Assembly (NCBI RefSeq): GCF_900113545.1
Contig: NZ_FOPS01000005.1
Location: forward strand, 1-64,000
Direction of reading: 5' to 3'
DNA length: 64,000 nt
Source of the DNA: Neisseria elongata subsp. elongata
GTDB lineage: Bacteria; Pseudomonadota; Gammaproteobacteria; Burkholderiales; Neisseriaceae
Part shown: piece by piece, positions 6,287 through 14,774 of the stretch
How the letters are laid out: every line of letters starts with the position of its first letter
Position numbering within the stretch: the stretch's first letter is position 1
Made by a program: the position numbers and the translations under genes
The notes under the pieces: generated by a model
What the model saw: the letters and a program-made list of their open reading frames with translations, nothing else
Databases searched by the model: none
What the model was told of the DNA's origin: nothing

Positions 6287-7255
6287 TCAGACGGCGTGCG
6301 CGGGTTTGCGCATCAGTAGGTACAAAAACAACACCGTCCCCACCACGCCGAACACGGTGGATACGGGAATCTCGAACGGCGCGCGTATCGTCCGGCCGAC
6401 GATGTCGCAGGCCAACACCAGCGAAGCCCCCATCAGCGCGACCGCCGGCAGGCTCGCACGCAGCTTGTCGCCCATCAAACGGCTGACGATATTGGGCACG
6501 ACCAGCCCGATAAACGGAATGCTGCCCACCGTAACCACCACCAGCGAAGTAATCAGCGACACAATCATCAGCCCCGACCACAAAACCACCGTGCGGTTCA
6601 GGCCGAGATTGACGCTGACCGAATCGCCCAGCCCCGCAATCGTCAATTGGTCGGCAATCAAATAAGCGCATGCCGCCGCCGCACCGCCTATCCACAGCAG
6701 CTCGTAACGTCCCTGCATCATATTGGAGAAATCACCCGACAACAGCGCGCCCAAAGCCTGCATCATCTCCTGCTCATAAGCGATAAACAGCGTAACCGAC
6801 TCAATCACTCCGCCGAAAATCACCCCCACCAGCGGCACCATCAACTGCGCCGTCGGCGGCAGGCGCGAAATCAACGCCATAAACAGCAGCATCCCTGCCA
6901 TCGCCGCCGCCGCGCCGACCGACATCCTCAACAGCGGCGCAACGGACGGCGCAAACAGCATCATCAGCAGCAAGGCCAAGGCCGCACTCTGGCTCGCCCC
7001 CACCATCGAAGGCTCGACAAAGCGGTTTTTCATTAAAATCTGCATAATCATGCCCGCCACCGCCAGCGACGCACCGCTCAACACCACCGCGAAGGTGCGC
7101 GGCAGGCGGCTGATCAGCATCAACTGCATACTGTCGGCCGAAGAAAAAATCCGCGACCAATGAAATTCCGCCACCCCGACCGACAAACTCAATGCAAACA
7201 GCGGCAGCAATATCAACAGATTGGCCAGATTGAACACCAATGCCTGTCGTTTCAT
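6287..7255 (-). CDS. fetC: Iron-siderophore ABC transporter permease
   Basis: 322 aa from the ATG at 7255, which has an AAGGAA ribosome binding site; a longer reading to 7300 lacks one. FecCD-type permease with repeated hydrophobic segments. It shows the family motifs GDSVSVNLGLN (~205) and GSIPFIGLVVPNI (~248), where the coupling helix meets the ATPase. It is the partner of FetD. A 188 bp gap with an inverted DUS pair separates it from fetB upstream. Confidence 0.86.
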   Translation of the reverse strand: MKRQALVFNLANLLILLPLFALSLSVGVAEFHWSRIFSSADSMQLMLISRLPRTFAVVLSGASLAVAGMIMQILMKNRFVEPSMVGASQSAALALLLMMLFAPSVAPLLRMSVGAAAAMAGMLLFMALISRLPPTAQLMVPLVGVIFGGVIESVTLFIAYEQEMMQALGALLSGDFSNMMQGRYELLWIGGAAAACAYLIADQLTIAGLGDSVSVNLGLNRTVVLWSGLMIVSLITSLVVVTVGSIPFIGLVVPNIVSRLMGDKLRASLPAVALMGASLVLACDIVGRTIRAPFEIPVSTVFGVVGTVLFLYLLMRKPAHAV

Positions 7256-8409: not shown

Positions 8410-8451
8410 CAAACATCACTCCAAAAAAAGATAAAAAAATATCTGCCTGTC

Positions 8452-8496
8452 AAAAGGCCGTCTGAAAACTTAATCGGCACTTTCAGACGGCCTTTT
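8452..8496. terminator. Inverted DUS hairpin in front of fetB
   Basis: 16 bp arms (8452-8467, 8481-8496) with T/A-rich flanks on both sides, only ~43 bp upstream of the fetB start. With the nearest minus-strand gene start on its other side missing, it either insulates fetB or is the relic terminator of a lost upstream gene. Confidence 0.6.
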
Positions 8497-8519
8497 TAAA
8501 AATAATTATTCTCTTTCAT
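8497..8519. promoter_or_regulatory. Possible Fur box upstream of fetB
   Basis: An AATAATTATT core (8501-8510) with flanking A/T and CTTTCATTTT resembles the repeated NATAAT hexamers of Fur sites. The match to the full 19 bp consensus is partial. fet genes are iron-repressed in Neisseria, so a Fur site is expected here, but this is inference. Confidence 0.35.
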
Positions 8520-8591
8520 TTTCTCATAAAACTACCGTTTTTAACAAACAGTAATATCGATTTTACTTCTACCGGCTTCAAATTTATTTTT

Positions 8592-8611
8592 ATTTCTGTA
8601 TTGACAGAAAT
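8592..8611. promoter_or_regulatory. Palindromic operator, copy 1
   Basis: ATTTCTGT-N4-ACAGAAAT, perfect 8 bp arms. The TTGACA of a plus-strand promoter is embedded in it, so a bound protein would block transcription. The same palindrome recurs at 8778-8801. The size and N4 spacing suit a dimeric TetR/MarR-type repressor, but no regulator gene lies nearby. Confidence 0.7.
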
Positions 8612-8630
8612 TATAGACTGAAAATACAAT
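8601..8630 (+). promoter_or_regulatory. Probable promoter of the DoxX/desaturase cluster
   Basis: TTGACA (8601-8606), 18 bp spacer, TACAAT (8625-8630). It would start transcription near 8637, about 180 bp before the DoxX-like gene. Its -35 box overlaps operator copy 1. Confidence 0.6.
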
Positions 8631-8777
8631 GCAGCCATTCCAAACATCCAGGCCGTCTGAAAACGGCTTGAAGAGAAAATGCTGCAATATAAATACTGAA
8701 ACAGCATTGAATAAAAGTTGAATAAACTGCCGTATCGTTATTCCGGCAAACCGCCGCGACAAAAATTTTTTGACTTA

Positions 8778-8801
8778 AAATTTCTGTTTAGACAGAAATT
8801 T
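8778..8801. promoter_or_regulatory. Palindromic operator, copy 2
   Basis: Perfect 10 bp arms, AAATTTCTGT and ACAGAAATTT, around TTAG. It shares the TTTCTGT-N4-ACAGAAA core with copy 1, 186 bp away, and ends 13 bp before the ATG of the DoxX-like gene, just upstream of its AGGA ribosome binding site. Confidence 0.72.
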
Positions 8802-8814
8802 AGGAATTTTAAAA

Positions 8815-9198
8815 ATGAACCAGCAACACAGAATCCCCGACTACCTGCCCTACTCCCTCGGCATCCTGTGGCTGTGGAGCGGGCTGCAACCGGTTTTGAC
8901 CGCGCCGCAGGAATCGCTTTCCCTCTTGGCCGAAGTCGGTTTTCAGACGGCCTTCCAATGGCCGCTGCTGCTGGCTTCATCGCTGCTCGACATCGTCTTC
9001 GGCCTGCTGTGTTTCAGCCGCGCGCGCCGCCTACCCGCACTTTGGGCGGTACAAGCGGCAACGGTGGCGGCATACAGCCTGATTATCGCGTTCGCCCTGC
9101 CGCAAATGTGGCTGCACCCGTTCGCACCGTTGGTAAAAAACCTGCCGATTTTGGCAATGCTGGCCTTCCTGCGGCATGAAGGCCGTCTGAAAAAGTAA
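8815..9198 (+). CDS. DoxX-like membrane protein
   Basis: 127 aa with about four membrane segments and the small-protein layout of the DoxX-like (DoxX_3) family. That family is often fused to or encoded with NAD-dependent epimerases of the kind found at 12012. It is the first gene of a plus-strand series with tight spacing. An AGGA ribosome binding site lies nine bases before the ATG. One DUS is read in frame (GFQTAF, ~residue 42) and a second supplies the C-terminus (EGRLKK then stop), showing the reading frame has absorbed uptake sequences. The role is not established; a membrane redox function is inferred from neighbours. Confidence 0.72.
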   Translation: MNQQHRIPDYLPYSLGILWLWSGLQPVLTAPQESLSLLAEVGFQTAFQWPLLLASSLLDIVFGLLCFSRARRLPALWAVQAATVAAYSLIIAFALPQMWLHPFAPLVKNLPILAMLAFLRHEGRLKK

Positions 9199-9225
9199 AA
9201 CCGCGTTTATTCGAGGAACGACATC

Positions 9226-9696
9226 ATGAACACCTATCTGATTGTAAAAACCCTGCACATCCTTTCAGCCACGCTGATGGTCGGCACCGGCTTCGGCACG
9301 GCGTTCTACCTCTTCTGGGCCAACCGCAGCGGCTCAGTGCCGGCGCAGGCGGTGGTGTCGAAATGGGTCATCAAGGCCGACTGGTGGTTCACCACACCCG
9401 CCGTGATTTTCCAACCGCTGTCAGGCTGGTGGATGATGTCGCAGGCTCACTTATCCTTCGACACAAAATGGATAGCCTGGACCATCGGCCTGTATATCTT
9501 GAGCGGCATCTGCTGGCTGCCCGTGGTCTGGCTGCAAATCCGTCTGGCGAAAATGGCGCAGGCCGCACACGAAGCGGGAGAAAACAGCCTGCCGCAAAAA
9601 TACTGGCGTTATGCGCGGATTTGGGAACTGCTGGGCTATCCCGCCTTCTGCGCCACAGTCGTCATTTACTTCCTGATGGTGCTCAAACCCGCCTGA
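9226..9696 (+). CDS. DUF2269-type integral membrane protein
   Basis: 156 aa with four predicted membrane helices. It begins with KTLHILSATLMVGTGFGTAF, the conserved His-containing first helix of the DUF2269 family, and has a WWFTTPAVIFQPLSGWWM second helix. It lies 27 bp after the DoxX-like gene, with a GAGGAA ribosome binding site, and is probably cotranscribed. The function of the family is unknown; the conserved helix-1 histidine hints at heme or quinone contact, which is speculation. Confidence 0.75.
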   Translation: MNTYLIVKTLHILSATLMVGTGFGTAFYLFWANRSGSVPAQAVVSKWVIKADWWFTTPAVIFQPLSGWWMMSQAHLSFDTKWIAWTIGLYILSGICWLPVVWLQIRLAKMAQAAHEAGENSLPQKYWRYARIWELLGYPAFCATVVIYFLMVLKPA

Positions 9697-9746
9697 GGCC
9701 GTCTGAAACCCGCCTGTAAACCCGAACCGCCCTATAGAGTAACGCA

Positions 9747-10160
9747 ATGGACAAGCACACAATTTTTTACGATGCCGAATGCCCGATCTGCATCCGCGAA
9801 ATCGCCCTGATTTTGGAAGACAACCGCGCGGAATATTTCAAAGCCGTCGCCATTCAGGGCAACGAAGAAACATTGAAACAATACGGCATTACCGCCGAAG
9901 ATGCGCTGACCTACCTGCACATATTGCGCAACGACGGCGTCATGCTGGGCAAAATGCCGGCCGTCCGGCTGATGTACCGCGGATTTAAAGGCTTTGCCCT
10001 CGTCAAACTGGCCAACCTGCCGCTGCTCGACCGCCTCGCCGACCTGATTTACCCTTGGTTCGCCCGCAACCGCTACCGCTTCCCGGCGTGGCTCCTGCCC
10101 CGTCCTCAATGCGAAAACGGCGTATGCCGCATCAAACCTTTAGAAAGGAACCTGAAATGA
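9747..10160 (+). CDS. DCC family (DUF393) thiol-disulfide-like protein
   Basis: 137 aa. The N-terminus carries FYDAECPICIREI, the D-x-x-CP-x-C motif that defines the DCC/DUF393 family, a thioredoxin-like group with two cysteines spaced CxxC. No signal peptide is evident, so the thiols probably face the cytoplasm. Its stop overlaps the start of the next gene (ATGA). It is placed in the membrane/lipid-redox cluster between DUF2269 and a secreted Cys-containing protein. Confidence 0.8.
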   Translation: MDKHTIFYDAECPICIREIALILEDNRAEYFKAVAIQGNEETLKQYGITAEDALTYLHILRNDGVMLGKMPAVRLMYRGFKGFALVKLANLPLLDRLADLIYPWFARNRYRFPAWLLPRPQCENGVCRIKPLERNLK

Positions 10161-10534
10161 AAAAACTGTTGCTCCCCCTGCTGCTGTTGCCTTGCGCCGC
10201 CTTTGCCGCCGACGACGGCGGACTGTCCCAATGCCCCCGCGTCTTCCGCGACAACATGGAAATCGCCGTCTTCACCATGCCTTGTCCGCCCGACAGCCAA
10301 GATGCCGCCCTGCCGCCGGAAAAAATGACCGCCCACCTGCGCCGGGTTCAAGAATGCGAAAACCGCATGGCCGGCGGTGATGCCGCACAAGCTGCCCGAA
10401 TCGAAAAAGAACTGCTTGAGTTCGTCGGTTCCCGTGCAAAAACCGTACGCGCCCTCGAAGGCAAACCGCAGGAAATGGCCGCCTACTGCCGGAAACAAAA
10501 CGAAACCGCCCGCCGCCTGCTGCTGACTTACTGA
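10157..10534 (+). CDS. Secreted cysteine-containing protein of unknown function
   Basis: 125 aa. It has a clear signal peptide (MKKLLLPLLLLPCAAFA, cleavage likely after AFA). The mature part has four cysteines (SQCPR, MPCPP, QECEN, AYCRK), enough for two disulfides, and is otherwise charged and helical. An AGAAAGGAA ribosome binding site lies inside the end of the DCC gene, and start and stop overlap by four bases, so translation is coupled. I do not recognise a family. A periplasmic partner of the redox proteins in the same operon is the simplest guess. Confidence 0.65.
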   Translation: MKKLLLPLLLLPCAAFAADDGGLSQCPRVFRDNMEIAVFTMPCPPDSQDAALPPEKMTAHLRRVQECENRMAGGDAAQAARIEKELLEFVGSRAKTVRALEGKPQEMAAYCRKQNETARRLLLTY

Positions 10535-10561
10535 CCCGCCGGAACAACGAAAGGAAACACC

Positions 10562-10960
10562 ATGGAAAACCTGATGATTGTTATCATGACGGCCGCCGTC
10601 TCCCTCCTCACCAGCCTGACCTGCTGGCTGATTGTCGGCCCGCAGCTCAAGCACGTCCTGGCCTCCCTCTGCAACGACGAACGCGAAAACGTCAAAGAAA
10701 TAAGCGGCCTGTTCTGGCAGCGGCTCTACGCCGGGCTGACCGTCTTCATCCCGCTCCTGTGCGTCCTGGCGTTCGCACCGGATTTCGAACTCAGCGCGGC
10801 CGCCAACCTGCTTATCGCCATGCGCTGCGCCATCTTGGGCGGCGTCATCCTGCTTTTGGTGCTGGCCTACCAAATCCGGCAGCAAATCCGCCTGTTGCAG
10901 AAAAAAGAACCCTCAATACCCGCCGGATACCGCATCGGCGAACTGGAACAGCAAAAATGA
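10562..10960 (+). CDS. Small membrane protein of unknown function
   Basis: 132 aa with about three membrane segments (residues 3-25, 57-77, 80-102) and a basic cytoplasmic tail rich in Gln and Lys. It has a GAAAGGAA ribosome binding site and lies 27 bp after the secreted protein gene. Its stop overlaps the desaturase start (ATGA), so the two are translationally coupled. I do not recognise the family; coupling suggests it works with the desaturase, perhaps as a membrane partner. Confidence 0.62.
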   Translation: MENLMIVIMTAAVSLLTSLTCWLIVGPQLKHVLASLCNDERENVKEISGLFWQRLYAGLTVFIPLLCVLAFAPDFELSAAANLLIAMRCAILGGVILLLVLAYQIRQQIRLLQKKEPSIPAGYRIGELEQQK

Positions 10961-11784
10961 AACCGACCGAAAAACCCCAAATCGAATGGCGCGACCTGCT
11001 GCACTTAAACCGCCGCCAGATTGCCTTCAACGTTTTGCTCTCCCTGCCGTTCTTGGCCGCATCCTGGCTGTTTGCGGCATACGGGCAATACCTTGCCGCA
11101 CTCGTCATGTCGTTTTTCTTCTTCACCTGCGCCCTGCGGCAGGCGCACGACTGCTACCACCACAGCATAGGACTGAACCGTCCGGGCGTACGCATCATGC
11201 TGCACCTGCTGAGCATCGCCATGCTGTGCAGCACCCACGCCATCCGCCACACCCACCTGCAACACCACCGCGACCCGCTGGGCGAAGGAGACGTGGAAGG
11301 CAACTGGGCACGCCTGCCCGCCTGGAAAGCCATCCTGTTCGGCGGCCTGTTTTCCGTGCGCATCCAATGGCAGGGCCTGATGCACGGCAGCCGCACCACC
11401 CGGAGCCGCAGCCGCCTCGACATGTTCCTGATTGCCGCCTTTATCGCCGCCGCCCTCATCACGCGGCACCCCGTACTGCTTTACCACACCGCCGCCATGA
11501 TAGCGGCCAACGCATTGGTCGGCTTCTTCGCCGTCTGGTCGGTGCACCACGACTGCGACACGCACGGCGTATACGCCCGCACCGAACGTCAGGCCTGGGC
11601 AAACTTCGCCACCGTTTACCTGCTCTACCACATGGAACACCACCTGTTTGCCGCCGTTCCCTCCAACCACCTGCCCGAACTCGCCCGCCGCCTCGATGCC
11701 GCCGCGCCGGAATGGAGCGCGCACCGCGTCCTGCCGCAGCCGAAAAAACAACCCTGCCCGCTCAAACGCCTGCTGCACACCTAA
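10957..11784 (+). CDS. Membrane fatty acid desaturase family protein
   Basis: 275 aa from the ATG at 10957. The three histidine clusters of the di-iron desaturase/hydroxylase superfamily are present: HDCYHH (64-69), HAIRHTHLQHH (94-104) and YHMEHHLFAAVPSNH (~230), plus an extra VHHDCDTHG. Hydrophobic segments fall between them. It should use O2 and reducing equivalents to desaturate or hydroxylate a lipid chain in the membrane. The redox-like proteins upstream could supply electrons, but no ferredoxin or cytochrome is visible. It is the last gene before an inverted DUS terminator. Confidence 0.85.
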   Translation: MKPTEKPQIEWRDLLHLNRRQIAFNVLLSLPFLAASWLFAAYGQYLAALVMSFFFFTCALRQAHDCYHHSIGLNRPGVRIMLHLLSIAMLCSTHAIRHTHLQHHRDPLGEGDVEGNWARLPAWKAILFGGLFSVRIQWQGLMHGSRTTRSRSRLDMFLIAAFIAAALITRHPVLLYHTAAMIAANALVGFFAVWSVHHDCDTHGVYARTERQAWANFATVYLLYHMEHHLFAAVPSNHLPELARRLDAAAPEWSAHRVLPQPKKQPCPLKRLLHT

Positions 11785-11788
11785 AACC

Positions 11789-11831
11789 TTTTCAGACGGC
11801 CTCCCCGTCCGGTACGGAGGCCGTCTGAAAA
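11789..11831 (+). terminator. Inverted DUS terminator after the desaturase gene
   Basis: 15 bp arms with a 13 base loop, starting five bases after the desaturase stop. It separates the six-gene run from the epimerase gene. Confidence 0.65.
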
Positions 11832-11850
11832 CAGGAAAACAAAGCCGGAA

Positions 11851-11905
11851 GGCGGTTTCACAACCGAAACGGACAACGCGGACAACCATCCGTTTCCAAA
11901 CCGCC
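11851..11905 (+). other. Nested inverted repeat upstream of the epimerase gene
   Basis: Outer arms GGCGGTTT (11851-11858) and AAACCGCC (11898-11905) enclose inner perfect arms GAAACGGA (11866-11873) and TCCGTTTC (11889-11896). This would fold into a two-tier hairpin in RNA or a cruciform in DNA. It is not DUS based and lies about 105 bp before the ATG at 12012. Function unknown. Confidence 0.5.
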
Positions 11906-12011
11906 GGCCAACGGAATATCGAATGCCCAAACACACGCCGGCCGCACATTCAAGCTTTCAGACGGCCTCAAGCATCCCCCGCCCAACGACAAAGAAAACA
12001 AGGAAAACACC

Positions 12012-12851
12012 ATGAACATCCTGCTGCTCGGCGGCAGCGGCTTTATCGGCAGCCGCCTCGCCCGCCGCCTGCGCGAAGCCGGACACCAAGTCCGCACCCC
12101 GTCGCGCCGCGAACTCGACCTGCTGAACCCCGAAGCATCCGCCGCCATGCCGCTGCTGGAAGGCTGCGATGCCGTCGCCAACTGCGTCGGCATCATGAGC
12201 CGCCGCCGCGACCTGCTCGAAACCGTCCACCACCATACCCCCGCCAAACTGGCGGCGTGGGCGCGAGAAGCGGGCGTTTCCCGCTGGCTGCAACTCTCCG
12301 CCCTCGGCGCAGACCCCGCACATCCTGTCGCCTTCGTCGGCAGCAAAGGGCGCGGAGACGAAGCCGTCTGCGAAAACGGCCCGCACACCGTCTTGGCACG
12401 CCCTTCCGTGGTATACGGGCGCGGCGGCGGCAGCTGCGAAGCCTTCCTCAAACTGGCGCGCCTGCCCGTCCTGCCCCTGCCGGACGGCGGCCGTTTCGAC
12501 CTCCAACCCGTGCATGCCGAAGACGTAGCCGACGGCCTCGCCCGCCTCCTGAACGCCCCGTCGGCGCACGGCAGCGTCATCCACATGACAGGCCGTCTGA
12601 AACTGACACTGGCCGACTACCTCAACCTATTGCGCCAAACCGTGCACCGCAAACCGCCGTTTCAAACCGCCTCCATCCCGCTCCCCCTCCTGCGCCCGAT
12701 GTTGCCGCCGGCCAATCTGTTGAGCGACGGCTTCCTCAGCCCCGACAGCATCACCCTGCTGCAACAAGGCTCCTGCGCCGACACCGCCGCCTTCGCCGCC
12801 CTGCTGGAACGCGAACCGCTGGGTGCGGACGAGTTTTACCGCCTCGATTAA
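12012..12851 (+). CDS. NAD(P)-dependent epimerase/dehydratase family protein
   Basis: 279 aa. The N-terminal nucleotide-binding motif GGSGFIGSRL (residues 8-17) is typical of extended/atypical SDR proteins. The body resembles NmrA/complex-I-assembly-like NAD-binding proteins (VYGRGGGSCEAFLKLA near residue 135, HAEDVADGLARLL near 170). No clear YxxxK is seen, so catalysis is uncertain. Homologous SDR domains are often fused to a DoxX-like domain, which supports a functional link to the gene at 8815 even though a terminator lies between. Start: ATG at 12012 behind AAGGAAAA. An intrinsic terminator follows at 12897. Confidence 0.75.
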   Translation: MNILLLGGSGFIGSRLARRLREAGHQVRTPSRRELDLLNPEASAAMPLLEGCDAVANCVGIMSRRRDLLETVHHHTPAKLAAWAREAGVSRWLQLSALGADPAHPVAFVGSKGRGDEAVCENGPHTVLARPSVVYGRGGGSCEAFLKLARLPVLPLPDGGRFDLQPVHAEDVADGLARLLNAPSAHGSVIHMTGRLKLTLADYLNLLRQTVHRKPPFQTASIPLPLLRPMLPPANLLSDGFLSPDSITLLQQGSCADTAAFAALLEREPLGADEFYRLD

Positions 12852-12928: not shown

Positions 12929-13062
12929 AACTGCAAAACGGCCGGATTCTGAACCAATCCGCTCAAGCGGCTGGATACGGCGGGGCGACACCACACATCG
13001 GTTTAAAACAAAATTCGCCGTATCCACATCTTTTCAGACGGCCTGCGCCGGTTTGCTTCGTC

Positions 13063-13082
13063 ATTCCCGCACAGGCGGAAAT
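13063..13082. repeat. dRS3 repeat, degenerate
   Basis: ATTCCC-N8-GGAAAT, one mismatch to the dRS3 consensus ATTCCC-N8-GGGAAT found in neisserial repeat arrays. Confidence 0.75.
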
Positions 13083-13123
13083 CCAAACACGAATGCGCCG
13101 CTCACACCACCCATAGCAGAATT

Positions 13124-13286
13124 CGTCATTCCCGCGCAGGCGGGAATCCAGGCATCGGATTTTCAGAAACGTTTAGAATCTGTTGCACAGTCAAACTCCC
13201 CCCTGCGCGGCGGGCTTGCGTCAGCTGATGGCGATCCGGAGCGTCCTTATTTGATGGATTATATTTTCAGACGGCCTCCGCAATCA
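13124..13286. repeat. ~165 bp direct repeat, copy A
   Basis: It begins with a dRS3 element and ends with the DUS-containing last codons of waaA (…CCTCCGCAATCA). It is about 85-90% identical by eye to 13365-13534. The region 12929-13514 contains no credible gene. The copy looks like a duplicated fragment of the waaA 3' flank, with dRS3 at its outer edge. Confidence 0.75.
13128..13147. repeat. dRS3 repeat
   Basis: Perfect ATTCCC-N8-GGGAAT with the common GCGCAGGC interior. It forms the start of direct-repeat copy A. Confidence 0.85.
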
Positions 13287-13364
13287 TCGGGGCACTACAA
13301 CCAACACACGAGCAATCAATACGGCATTGACCACTTGCCGCCATCTGCCTGCACCGGTTTGCTT

Positions 13365-13534
13365 CGTCATTCCCGCGCAGGCGGGAATCCAGGCATCGGA
13401 TTTTCAGAAACATTTAAAATCTGTTACACAGCCAAACTTCCAAACTCCTCCTGCGCGGCGGCCTTGCGTCAGCTGATGGCGATATGGAGCGTCCTTATCC
13501 GATGGATTATATTTTCAGACGGCCTCCGCAATCA
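13365..13534. repeat. ~165 bp direct repeat, copy B
   Basis: Second copy, running into the 3' end of waaA (stop at 13515). It differs from copy A by scattered substitutions and a few inserted bases around 13440. Since its right end is real coding sequence, copy B is probably the original and copy A the duplicate. Confidence 0.75.
13369..13388. repeat. dRS3 repeat
   Basis: Perfect ATTCCC-N8-GGGAAT at the start of direct-repeat copy B. Confidence 0.85.
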
Positions 13535-14774
13535 GTGAAGCGATGGTTTCGCTTGCGCCACGATGGCGGCGGATAAAACCTTCCGCGCAGTCCGATACCT
13601 GCCGGCGCAGCCGGTCGTCCGAAAGCCATTGTTCGGTTATCTTGCGCCATTCGTCGGCATCGCGCACCTGAACGGCCGCACCCGCCTCGGTTGCGCTGCG
13701 GCAGGCTTGTTCGAAATTGTAGGTGGAAAAACCGAACACGGTCGGCAGGCCGCAGGCAATCGGTTCGATGATGTTCTGACAGCCGCTGTCCACCAGGCTG
13801 CCGCCAACAAAGGCGGCATCGGCGGCGGCGTAATAGGCATAAAGCTCTCCCATGCTGTCGCCTATCCAAACCTGCGTATCGGCGGCCACTGCTTGGCCGT
13901 CGCTGCGTTTCTGCGTGCGGAAACCCAGCGTTAAGGCCGTCTGAAAAACGGCTTCGAAGCGTTCGGGATGACGCGGCACAATCACCAGCAAGGCATCGCC
14001 TCGGTAGGACTGCCAAGCCCGCAGCAGCAGTTCTGCTTCGTCTTGGTCGCGGTAAAAGCGGGTGCTGCCGCATACCGCCGTCGGCCTGCCGCCTATTTTG
14101 CGTTTGAACTCGGCGGCTTTCTCCAGCTGTTCGGGCGGCGGGGAAATATCGTATTTGGTGTTGCCGCACACTTTCGGGTCGGCCGCGCCCAAGCTTTTCA
14201 GACGGCCTGCATCGGTTTCGGTTTGGACATAGCAGCCTTTCAGGGCGGCCAAGGCCGGGCGGATAAGGGAAGCGGCCTTGAGGTAGCCGCGCTGCGATTT
14301 TTCCGACAGGCGGGCGTTGGCGAGAAATAAGGGGAGGTTCCGTTCGCGGCAGGCGGCCATGAGGTGCGGCCAGATTTCGGTTTCCATCAGGATGCCGAAG
14401 CGCGGGCGGTGTTCGTCGAGAAACTGCGCCACATAATCGGGACGGTCGTAGGGAAGGTAGCGGCATTGCGCGTCGGGAAACAGTTTTTCCGCCGTTTCGC
14501 GCCCCGTCGGCGTCATTTGGGTAATCAGCAGCGGCGCGTCGGGAAAGCGGCGGCGCAGGCTGCGGACGAGCGGTTCGGCGGCGCGCGTTTCGCCCACGGA
14601 TACGGCGTGCAGCCAGATGGCGTTTTGCAGCGGCGCGGGATGCGGACGGCCGAAGCGTTCGTCCCAATAGTCGAGGTAGGCGGGGTTTTTGACGGCGCGG
14701 CGGCGGAGGTAGCGGCGGATAAGCGGCGGGGCGATTTGCCAAAGGGCGCGGTACAGCAGGGAAAGCGGTGTCAT
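13515..14774 (-). CDS. waaA: Kdo transferase
   Basis: 419 aa, the usual length for 3-deoxy-D-manno-octulosonic acid transferase, which adds Kdo to lipid A precursor at the inner membrane. Recognisable family blocks are IWLHAVSVGE (~residue 53), LLITQMTPTGRE (~82), METEIWPHL (~130), PRHPERFE (~261), GGSLVDSGCQNIIEP (~322) and the N-terminal hydrophobic anchor. The last codons and the stop (IAEAV, TGA) are formed by a DUS. The 3' end lies in a duplicated repeat. With gmhA nearby this is part of LOS inner-core biosynthesis. Confidence 0.95.
   Translation of the reverse strand: MTPLSLLYRALWQIAPPLIRRYLRRRAVKNPAYLDYWDERFGRPHPAPLQNAIWLHAVSVGETRAAEPLVRSLRRRFPDAPLLITQMTPTGRETAEKLFPDAQCRYLPYDRPDYVAQFLDEHRPRFGILMETEIWPHLMAACRERNLPLFLANARLSEKSQRGYLKAASLIRPALAALKGCYVQTETDAGRLKSLGAADPKVCGNTKYDISPPPEQLEKAAEFKRKIGGRPTAVCGSTRFYRDQDEAELLLRAWQSYRGDALLVIVPRHPERFEAVFQTALTLGFRTQKRSDGQAVAADTQVWIGDSMGELYAYYAAADAAFVGGSLVDSGCQNIIEPIACGLPTVFGFSTYNFEQACRSATEAGAAVQVRDADEWRKITEQWLSDDRLRRQVSDCAEGFIRRHRGASETIASLIAEAV

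Follow-up and report, generated by a model that had tools for sequence, protein, structure and literature searches.

We analysed a stretch of 64,000 nucleotides from Neisseria elongata subsp. elongata (positions 1 to 64,000 of contig NZ_FOPS01000005.1; hereafter the window) with respect to a cluster of seven plus-strand genes, which we predict to form an operon for membrane and redox proteins under one dedicated regulator. An earlier note had described six such genes joined by 4-bp overlaps or short gaps plus an epimerase, and all seven reading frames were confirmed at the positions it gave, together with families and spacing. The first gene (8815..9198) encodes a DoxX_3 membrane protein of 127 amino acids (aa; Pfam PF13781, 1.6e-25). 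It is followed by genes for a DUF2269 four-helix membrane protein of 156 aa (9226..9696; Pfam, 2.9e-55), a DCC1-like thiol-disulfide protein of 137 aa (9747..10160; Pfam, 2e-20), a small secreted-type protein of 125 aa with four cysteines (10157..10534; signal peptide judged by eye), a small membrane protein of 132 aa (10562..10960), whose homologues lie beside the regulator gene in relatives, and an FA_desaturase-type di-iron protein of 275 aa (10957..11784; Pfam, 1.3e-16). The last gene (12012..12851) encodes an NDUFA9-like short-chain dehydrogenase/reductase (SDR) of 279 aa (Pfam Epimerase/RmlD, about 1e-13), which is the epimerase of the earlier note. The successive junctions are gaps of 27 bp and 50 bp, a 4-bp overlap (10157-10160), a gap of 27 bp, a second 4-bp overlap (10957-10960) and a gap of 227 bp. 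This last gap holds a strong plus-strand hairpin (11787-11835, -31.9 kcal/mol, z -6.7) formed by inverted repeats which, as we assume, resemble uptake sequences. It is a possible terminator or attenuator at the desaturase/SDR junction and is absent from the output of a pattern scan for terminators. The proteins encoded at 10157 and 10562 had been called members of no known family, and this assessment stands: both have zero Pfam matches, the former has no NCBIfam match and the latter has three weak ones (E 0.04-0.08, far under the cut-offs).

Two copies of an 18-bp palindrome with the pattern TTTCTGTNNNNACAGAAA lie 5' of the operon. Operator 1, TTTCTGTATTGACAGAAA (8593-8610), matches the pattern exactly and contains the -35 hexamer TTGACA (8601), with TACAAT 18 nt further, giving 11 of 12 promoter letters. 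Operator 2, TTTCTGTTTAGACAGAAA (8781-8798), is likewise exact and lies 16 bp 5' of the DoxX_3 start codon. These are the only exact copies in the 2.36-Mb genome. The sole copy with one mismatch is located directly 5' of a MarR-type regulator gene (G000:C5:81040-81570) on a contig other than that of the operon, where it adjoins what we take to be a upp-like gene; the same neighbour is found in six genomes (that of the window, G012, G014, G033, G039 and G048). Our computation shows a MarR-type (GbsR/CudC-like) regulator paired with the predicted operator TTTCTGTNNNNACAGAAA, 5' of its own gene and of the module. Regulator and operator had been missed by the earlier note and are the strongest evidence for the unity of the cluster.

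The regulator matches the winged-helix domain MarR_2 (PF12802, 34 bits, cut-off 27), and its closest solved relative is MJ223 (PDB 1ku9, 3.3e-12). For the family we use the name GbsR, which is our assumption. The protein is devoid of cysteine, a point against a thiol sensor. CudC (NF047500, 46.3 bits) is its best NCBIfam match, and this resemblance raises an osmotic or choline response, in which the regulator would sense choline as CudC/GbsR does and the module would adapt the membrane to osmotic stress. However, the score is far under the CudC cut-off of 218, and the predicted targets of the regulator are the present module, in which it differs from the known GbsR/CudC-type MarR regulators. 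We regard the choline reading as very improbable.

The operator recurs at the regulator genes of other genomes. A site was found in 99 of 103 regulator upstreams, these being distinct by sequence, so that one genome may occur twice. TTGACA lies inside the palindrome in one register in 83 of the 99 sites, and a -10 element with at least four of six matches follows at 15-19 bp in 80 of the 99, compared to 17% in shuffles. Because the palindrome usually holds the -35 box of the regulator gene itself, a repressor bound to the site would cover this box, and repression by occlusion of the promoter is likely. Furthermore, in genome G012, whose DUF2269 protein is 89% identical, two operators 671 bp apart enclose the gene for a 157-aa membrane protein. 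The window operators are 188 bp apart and the flanking sequence of each aligns with G012. The simplest reading of this alignment is that the window once lost the gene for the 157-aa protein between its operators, and operator 1 probably belonged to the small membrane-protein gene found in G012. Multiple operators are also present in a Moraxellaceae locus (L222), where three identical exact copies (2332, 2816 and 3363) lie 5' of one desaturase and two DCC genes.

The family sample comprised 83 genomes, 28 of them with DUF2269 and 26 with a strong match. The loci of the two weak genomes (G037 and G081; L039 and L040) carry none of the other module genes. The regulator is present in 32 of the 83 genomes, and none of the 26 with strong DUF2269 lacks it (Fisher p 3.8e-16); 27 of the 29 genomes with an exact operator have the regulator (Fisher p 1.3e-14). 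We fetched 27 family loci outside the window, some stretches ending at contig ends; of these, 24 contain DoxX_3 and 24 the SDR, while in 18 the same stretch also holds the regulator. A site with up to two mismatches was found within 400 bp 5' of DoxX_3 in 23 of 24 family loci and within the same distance of the regulator gene in 19 of 19, the window's own counted; random stretches taken from these loci, with the true sites left in, gave 73 of 960. In L014 the operator lies 360 bp 5' of DoxX_3; L016 has no site within 400 bp 5' of this gene.

Single genes are seemingly connected to the operator even outside the operon. In G063 the SDR gene (52% identity) is located on a separate contig with its own exact operator 5'. 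Homologues of the 10562 protein (49-53% identity) lie directly 3' of the regulator gene together with a one-mismatch site in G048, G014 and G033, and weaker ones lie between regulator and SDR-DoxX_3 in some Gammaproteobacteria and in Chromobacterium. Since operators precede these genes in G063 and in G048, G014 and G033, the SDR and the 10562 protein look like regulon members by sequence. The earlier note had included the SDR despite the hairpin, and rightly so given the separate operator in G063 and the fusion to DoxX_3 described below. In G033 the pair of regulator and 10562-type gene with its operator spans L187:3024-4167, and DUF2269 was not found in that genome. Sites also precede a gene in G005 and G006 which is presumably hslV-like; these may be due to chance.

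A chance assembly of accessory genes with no functional unity could account for the patchy occurrence of the desaturase, the four-cysteine gene and the small membrane gene in the family. 10157-type homologues, for instance, were found in only 2 of the 27 family loci (L028 and L038), with four cysteines common to the three sequences. Operator, co-occurrence and fusion speak against such an assembly, and we consider it the least probable of all explanations.

Beyond the family, a class sample of 369 genomes contained DUF2269 in 75, and the best 40 places outside the window were read, some stretches ending at contig ends. Sites occur in all ten class loci with the regulator and in 2 of the 30 without it. 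A similar picture emerges from 80 named loci, with sites in 62 of 64 with the regulator and in 3 of 16 without; the latter three are Neisseriaceae contigs (L093, L094 and L106) whose genomes presumably have the regulator elsewhere. Regulator, DoxX_3 and DUF2269 occur together in records of Burkholderia, Achromobacter, Bordetella, Chromobacterium, Psychrobacter and Cardiobacterium. Nine named whole genomes (2.4 to 8 Mb) contain 13 exact operators, eight genomes having one or two and one having none, and 12 of the 13 lie within module loci. The remaining one precedes a gene for a 385-aa membrane protein in Psychrobacter (L196) and may be due to chance.

In many Beta- and Gammaproteobacteria SDR and DoxX_3 are fused to one protein of ~430 aa, of which the window DoxX_3 is the counterpart of the C-terminal domain. 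Fusions were counted in 15 of the 40 class loci and 47 of the 80 named loci with window proteins alone as queries and Pfam run on one example; none was seen in the 27 family loci. Other partners appear in the class loci: a DUF4166-type protein in 12 of 40 (eight without and four with the regulator; Pfam on one), a Sacchrp_dh_NADP-type protein in seven (Pfam on one), all of which lack the regulator, and, judged by eye, an AraC-like regulator in five, none with the GbsR-like one. In these five (L044, L050, L054, L071 and L073) the putative AraC-type regulator has N-terminal membrane helices and adjoins the module, again by eye. On plasmids, DUF2269 relatives were found in 125 of 72,556 records, for example NZ_CP031226.1 (516606-517067, L287); 70 of the 125 are from Sinorhizobium. 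The annotation of Pseudomonas amygdali pMPPla107 places DUF2269 amid hypothetical genes with no module readable, and two further plasmid annotations are featureless at that place.

The top solved homologue of the window SDR is subunit P of an alphaproteobacterial respiratory supercomplex (9g83_P, 2.5e-24), followed by NDUFA9 chains. The fold test was done on the fused homologue L109 in place of the window protein, and its best matches are likewise of the NDUFA9 type. NDUFA9 is the NADPH-binding 39-kDa subunit of complex I, located on the membrane above the quinone tunnel (PMC8762328). It differs from the window-type SDR in that the latter is fused to or located near DoxX_3, and in that the window protein has Phe for the catalytic Tyr. 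The Rossmann glycine motif is kept and the catalytic residues read Ser96-Phe108-Lys112. Because Phe stands in place of the catalytic Tyr, the window SDR may serve for binding or for electron input.

MarR-type autorepressors commonly guard operons for lipophilic redox-active compounds. The module could accordingly serve the detoxification or repair of such compounds. SDR-DoxX_3 would in this case reduce such a compound with NAD(P)H in the ordinary way, being catalytic in lineages with the fusion, and the desaturase would do no more than restore the membrane under the same stress. An alignment of 89 SDR rows, in which the window is counted twice and a few genomes twice, cuts both ways: 37 of 41 fused rows retain Ser-Tyr-Lys, as this reading would expect, but 39 of the 48 single-domain rows, the window included, have Ser-Phe-Lys. 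We rate detoxification as possible though doubtful. The ketoreductase SimC7 (PDB 5l3z), rank 4 among the fold matches of the fused homologue and a member of the SDR superfamily, reduces its substrate despite a missing Ser-Tyr-Lys triad (PMC5039031). At the positions of Phe and Lys in the window SDR, SimC7 carries Ile and His; it is a soluble antibiotic enzyme, and no membrane partner is named in the portion of PMC5039031 consulted.

DUF2269 contains the invariant residues K8 and H11 in the first helix as well as D52 and Q63, and its predicted structure consists of four long helices (pLDDT 91). No solved relative was found by sequence search. A profile comparison aligns the KxxHI motif of the first helix and the closing KP with HemJ (UPF0093, PF03653; hhalign 76.8%, E 2.1e-5), a single control with DoxX_3 giving 0.1%. 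DUF2269 is nevertheless distinct from HemJ: it has no PF03653 match at E 1, and a separate PF03653 match lies at C8:129116. A distant likeness to DUF989, a domain of membrane urate oxidase, is mentioned in PMC4562309. No function for DUF2269 is given in the two open-licence PubMed Central full texts found to mention it. The DCC protein scores 74.6 bits (Pfam cut-off 27.8), and its cysteines C12 and C15 (the N-terminal CxxC), C122 and C127 are present in 16 of 16 aligned rows. DoxX_3 resembles the DoxX-family (MauE-like) proteins by its domain and by a weak MauE match (0.02), but belongs to a Pfam subfamily other than MauE. Other DoxX proteins are linked to thiosulfate oxidation.

The desaturase scores 61.5 bits for PF00487 (cut-off 29.7). 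Its histidine boxes are complete, with H64, H68, H94, H100, H103, H104 and H197 in 43 of 43 aligned rows and H225, H228 and H229 in 42 of 43. Among the 83 family genomes an intact copy is present in the window only. G036 has a decayed copy (G036:C92:20229-20644, L014:6236-6645) in which the middle is absent; the search of this locus gave no homologue of the 10157 or 10562 protein. Among the 369 class genomes seven other desaturase matches occur, five of them strong at 38-42% identity and in a different setting. In this second, operator-free neighbourhood (L088, L089, L090 and L091, with desaturase genes near 6560, 2250, 2035 and 660) the gene after a related desaturase encodes a membrane protein of at most about 260 aa, which belongs to no Pfam family (two tested). 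A further NAD(P)-binding protein is present in L088-L090, that of L088 being Sacchrp_dh_NADP by Pfam.

A connection to the module is found in Moraxellaceae. Psychrobacter sp. I-STPA6b carries regulator, DoxX_3, DUF2269, DCC, SDR, an exact operator and a desaturase with 43% identity. In 60 Psychrobacter genomes we obtained 28 desaturase matches with up to 64% identity over near full length, and in 149 Moraxellaceae genomes 31 matches, nine of which reach no better than E about 1e-4. Many of the Moraxellaceae desaturase genes lie directly 3' of regulator gene and operator or in the order operator-desaturase-DCC. A site is present within 260 bp upstream of 27 of 30 Moraxellaceae desaturase genes, which are related and hence do not represent 30 independent cases, compared to 7 of 1800 dinucleotide shuffles.

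In a tree of 43 desaturase rows, from which pieces spanning less than about 200 query residues were excluded, the window protein has a long branch (0.65) and joins the main Psychrobacter group with a support of 95/82; its exact place is unsure owing to long branches, and the midpoint root serves for drawing only. A fully supported branch splits 33 rows from 10. In the group of 33, 31 have a site with up to two mismatches in the fetched stretch and the regulator is present in the stretches of the remaining two. Without the window, from which the pattern was taken, and with a gene that occurs twice (L101 and L224) counted once, the site is found in 29 of 31; the 30 Moraxellaceae genes mentioned above belong to this group. 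In the other group none of the ten has site or regulator in the fetched stretch, and a site directly upstream was found in none of the eight tested. On these sequence grounds the desaturase is a recurrent predicted member of the GbsR-like regulon, in line with its inclusion in the cluster by the earlier note, and it has likely spread between Moraxellaceae and the present Neisseria by transfer.

The earlier note had gone further and proposed that the membrane proteins, DCC and the SDR could form a dedicated electron path for the desaturase. The NDUFA9-like protein, DoxX_3 and a HemJ-like DUF2269 could then constitute a small reductase that powers the di-iron desaturase without ferredoxin or cytochrome b5, in a single-purpose regulon whose GbsR-like repressor would sense the membrane state. 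The desaturase clade is linked to this regulator as well, and the desaturase gene adjoins that of an NAD(P)-binding protein in the window, in Psychrobacter sp. I-STPA6b (SDR, exact operator, desaturase) and in the operator-free group, where a membrane protein follows in four of five loci read and an NAD(P)-binding protein is present in three. But an intact desaturase occurs in only one of the 26 family genomes where DUF2269 is strong, and only one of the 80 named loci (Psychrobacter) has any, with up to 9 kb read on each side. Moreover, in L214-L216 the desaturase adjoins the regulator and no other module gene was recognised within the ~3.8 kb read. As the desaturase is rare in the family, electron delivery to it cannot be the core function of the module. 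We consider the dedicated electron path unlikely, and the small reductase with its single-purpose regulon equally so.

The desaturase shares complete histidine boxes and a weak CrtW match with the membrane fatty-acid desaturases and carotenoid hydroxylases or ketolases of PF00487, and a Psychrobacter relative has weak NCBIfam matches to DesB, CrtW and CrtR. It differs from these enzymes by scoring below every NCBIfam cut-off shown and by its predicted control by the GbsR-like protein. The putative desaturase may instead be a hydroxylase or ketolase. A carotenoid role was rejected, with CrtW at 19 bits against a cut-off of 350; carotenoid genes were not searched for. A comparison with solved structures yielded three transhydrogenase matches (E 0.16-0.58), which were taken as chance.

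Taken together, we hold with moderate confidence that the window operon represents the Neisseria form of a conserved inducible membrane module under one dedicated repressor. The core genes of the predicted module are the MarR-type regulator, DoxX_3, DUF2269 and the NDUFA9-like SDR. Gene content and regulation are well supported by the comparisons above; for the function, inducible NAD(P)H-linked membrane redox or lipid modification is our best guess. A regulator dimer would bind the palindrome, cover the -35 box and repress its own gene and the module until it is released upon a signal, probably lipophilic or membrane-derived. The module products would together make up a membrane redox unit linked to NAD(P)H. 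In this unit the NDUFA9-like SDR, either fused or tethered to DoxX_3, would bind NAD(P)H on the surface of the membrane, DUF2269 would be a four-helix partner, possibly binding haem or quinone, and DCC would act as thiol oxidoreductase. The substrate might be a quinone or another lipid-soluble compound. In Moraxellaceae and the present Neisseria the desaturase would be a second output of the regulon, altering acyl chains under the same signal.

Several observations weigh against a conserved module of this kind. The palindrome was chosen from the window, such that its two copies there are not independent evidence, while those of the relatives are. At two mismatches the pattern is no commoner in the genome than a reversed control (7 vs 9 per strand); the weight of the operator hence rests on the exact sites and the relatives. 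Many Psychrobacter sites have two mismatches, and 4 of the 103 regulator genes have no site. Six family genomes have the regulator without DUF2269 (G033, G005-G008 and G057), five have the regulator without an exact operator, and two (G035 and G082) have an exact operator without the regulator. Furthermore, 30 of the 40 class loci have DUF2269 and lack the GbsR-like regulator. Neither SDR nor DoxX_3 was recognised in nine of the 40 (L060, L065, L068, L069, L070, L075, L077, L078 and L080), three of which have a Sacchrp_dh-type protein instead. Routine unlinking of the homologues, named in the earlier note as a sign against a common system, is not seen for the core genes in the family, although these nine class loci show DUF2269 with neither partner recognised. 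Within the window a strong hairpin lies 5' of the SDR gene and no operator is located directly upstream of it, and the Tyr-to-Phe exchange argues against ordinary SDR catalysis in this lineage. Finally, the link of DUF2269 to HemJ is weak, with its single control, and the DUF2269 model matched no PDB structure below E 0.001.

The pair of regulator and module is not described in the open-licence PubMed Central full texts searched, consistent with the proposal of an undescribed system. By their names, DUF2269 and DUF4166 are domains of unknown function, and DoxX_3 owes its name to likeness alone. With their link to a single regulator and its 18-bp operator, the function of these families becomes testable, the regulator being a direct handle on the role of these little-studied membrane genes. 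As regulator, DoxX_3 and DUF2269 occur together in the genera named above, an answer would annotate many genomes.

With respect to the surroundings, the operon has a neighbour on the opposite strand which we take to be fetB. The absence of an expected fetA was confirmed insofar as PF00593, the TonB-receptor family, has no match on contig C4 and 18 elsewhere in the genome. Between the SDR gene and the next gene (13050-13540) a stretch containing cattcccgcgcaggcgggaatccaggcatcggattttcagaaac occurs twice, as judged by eye.

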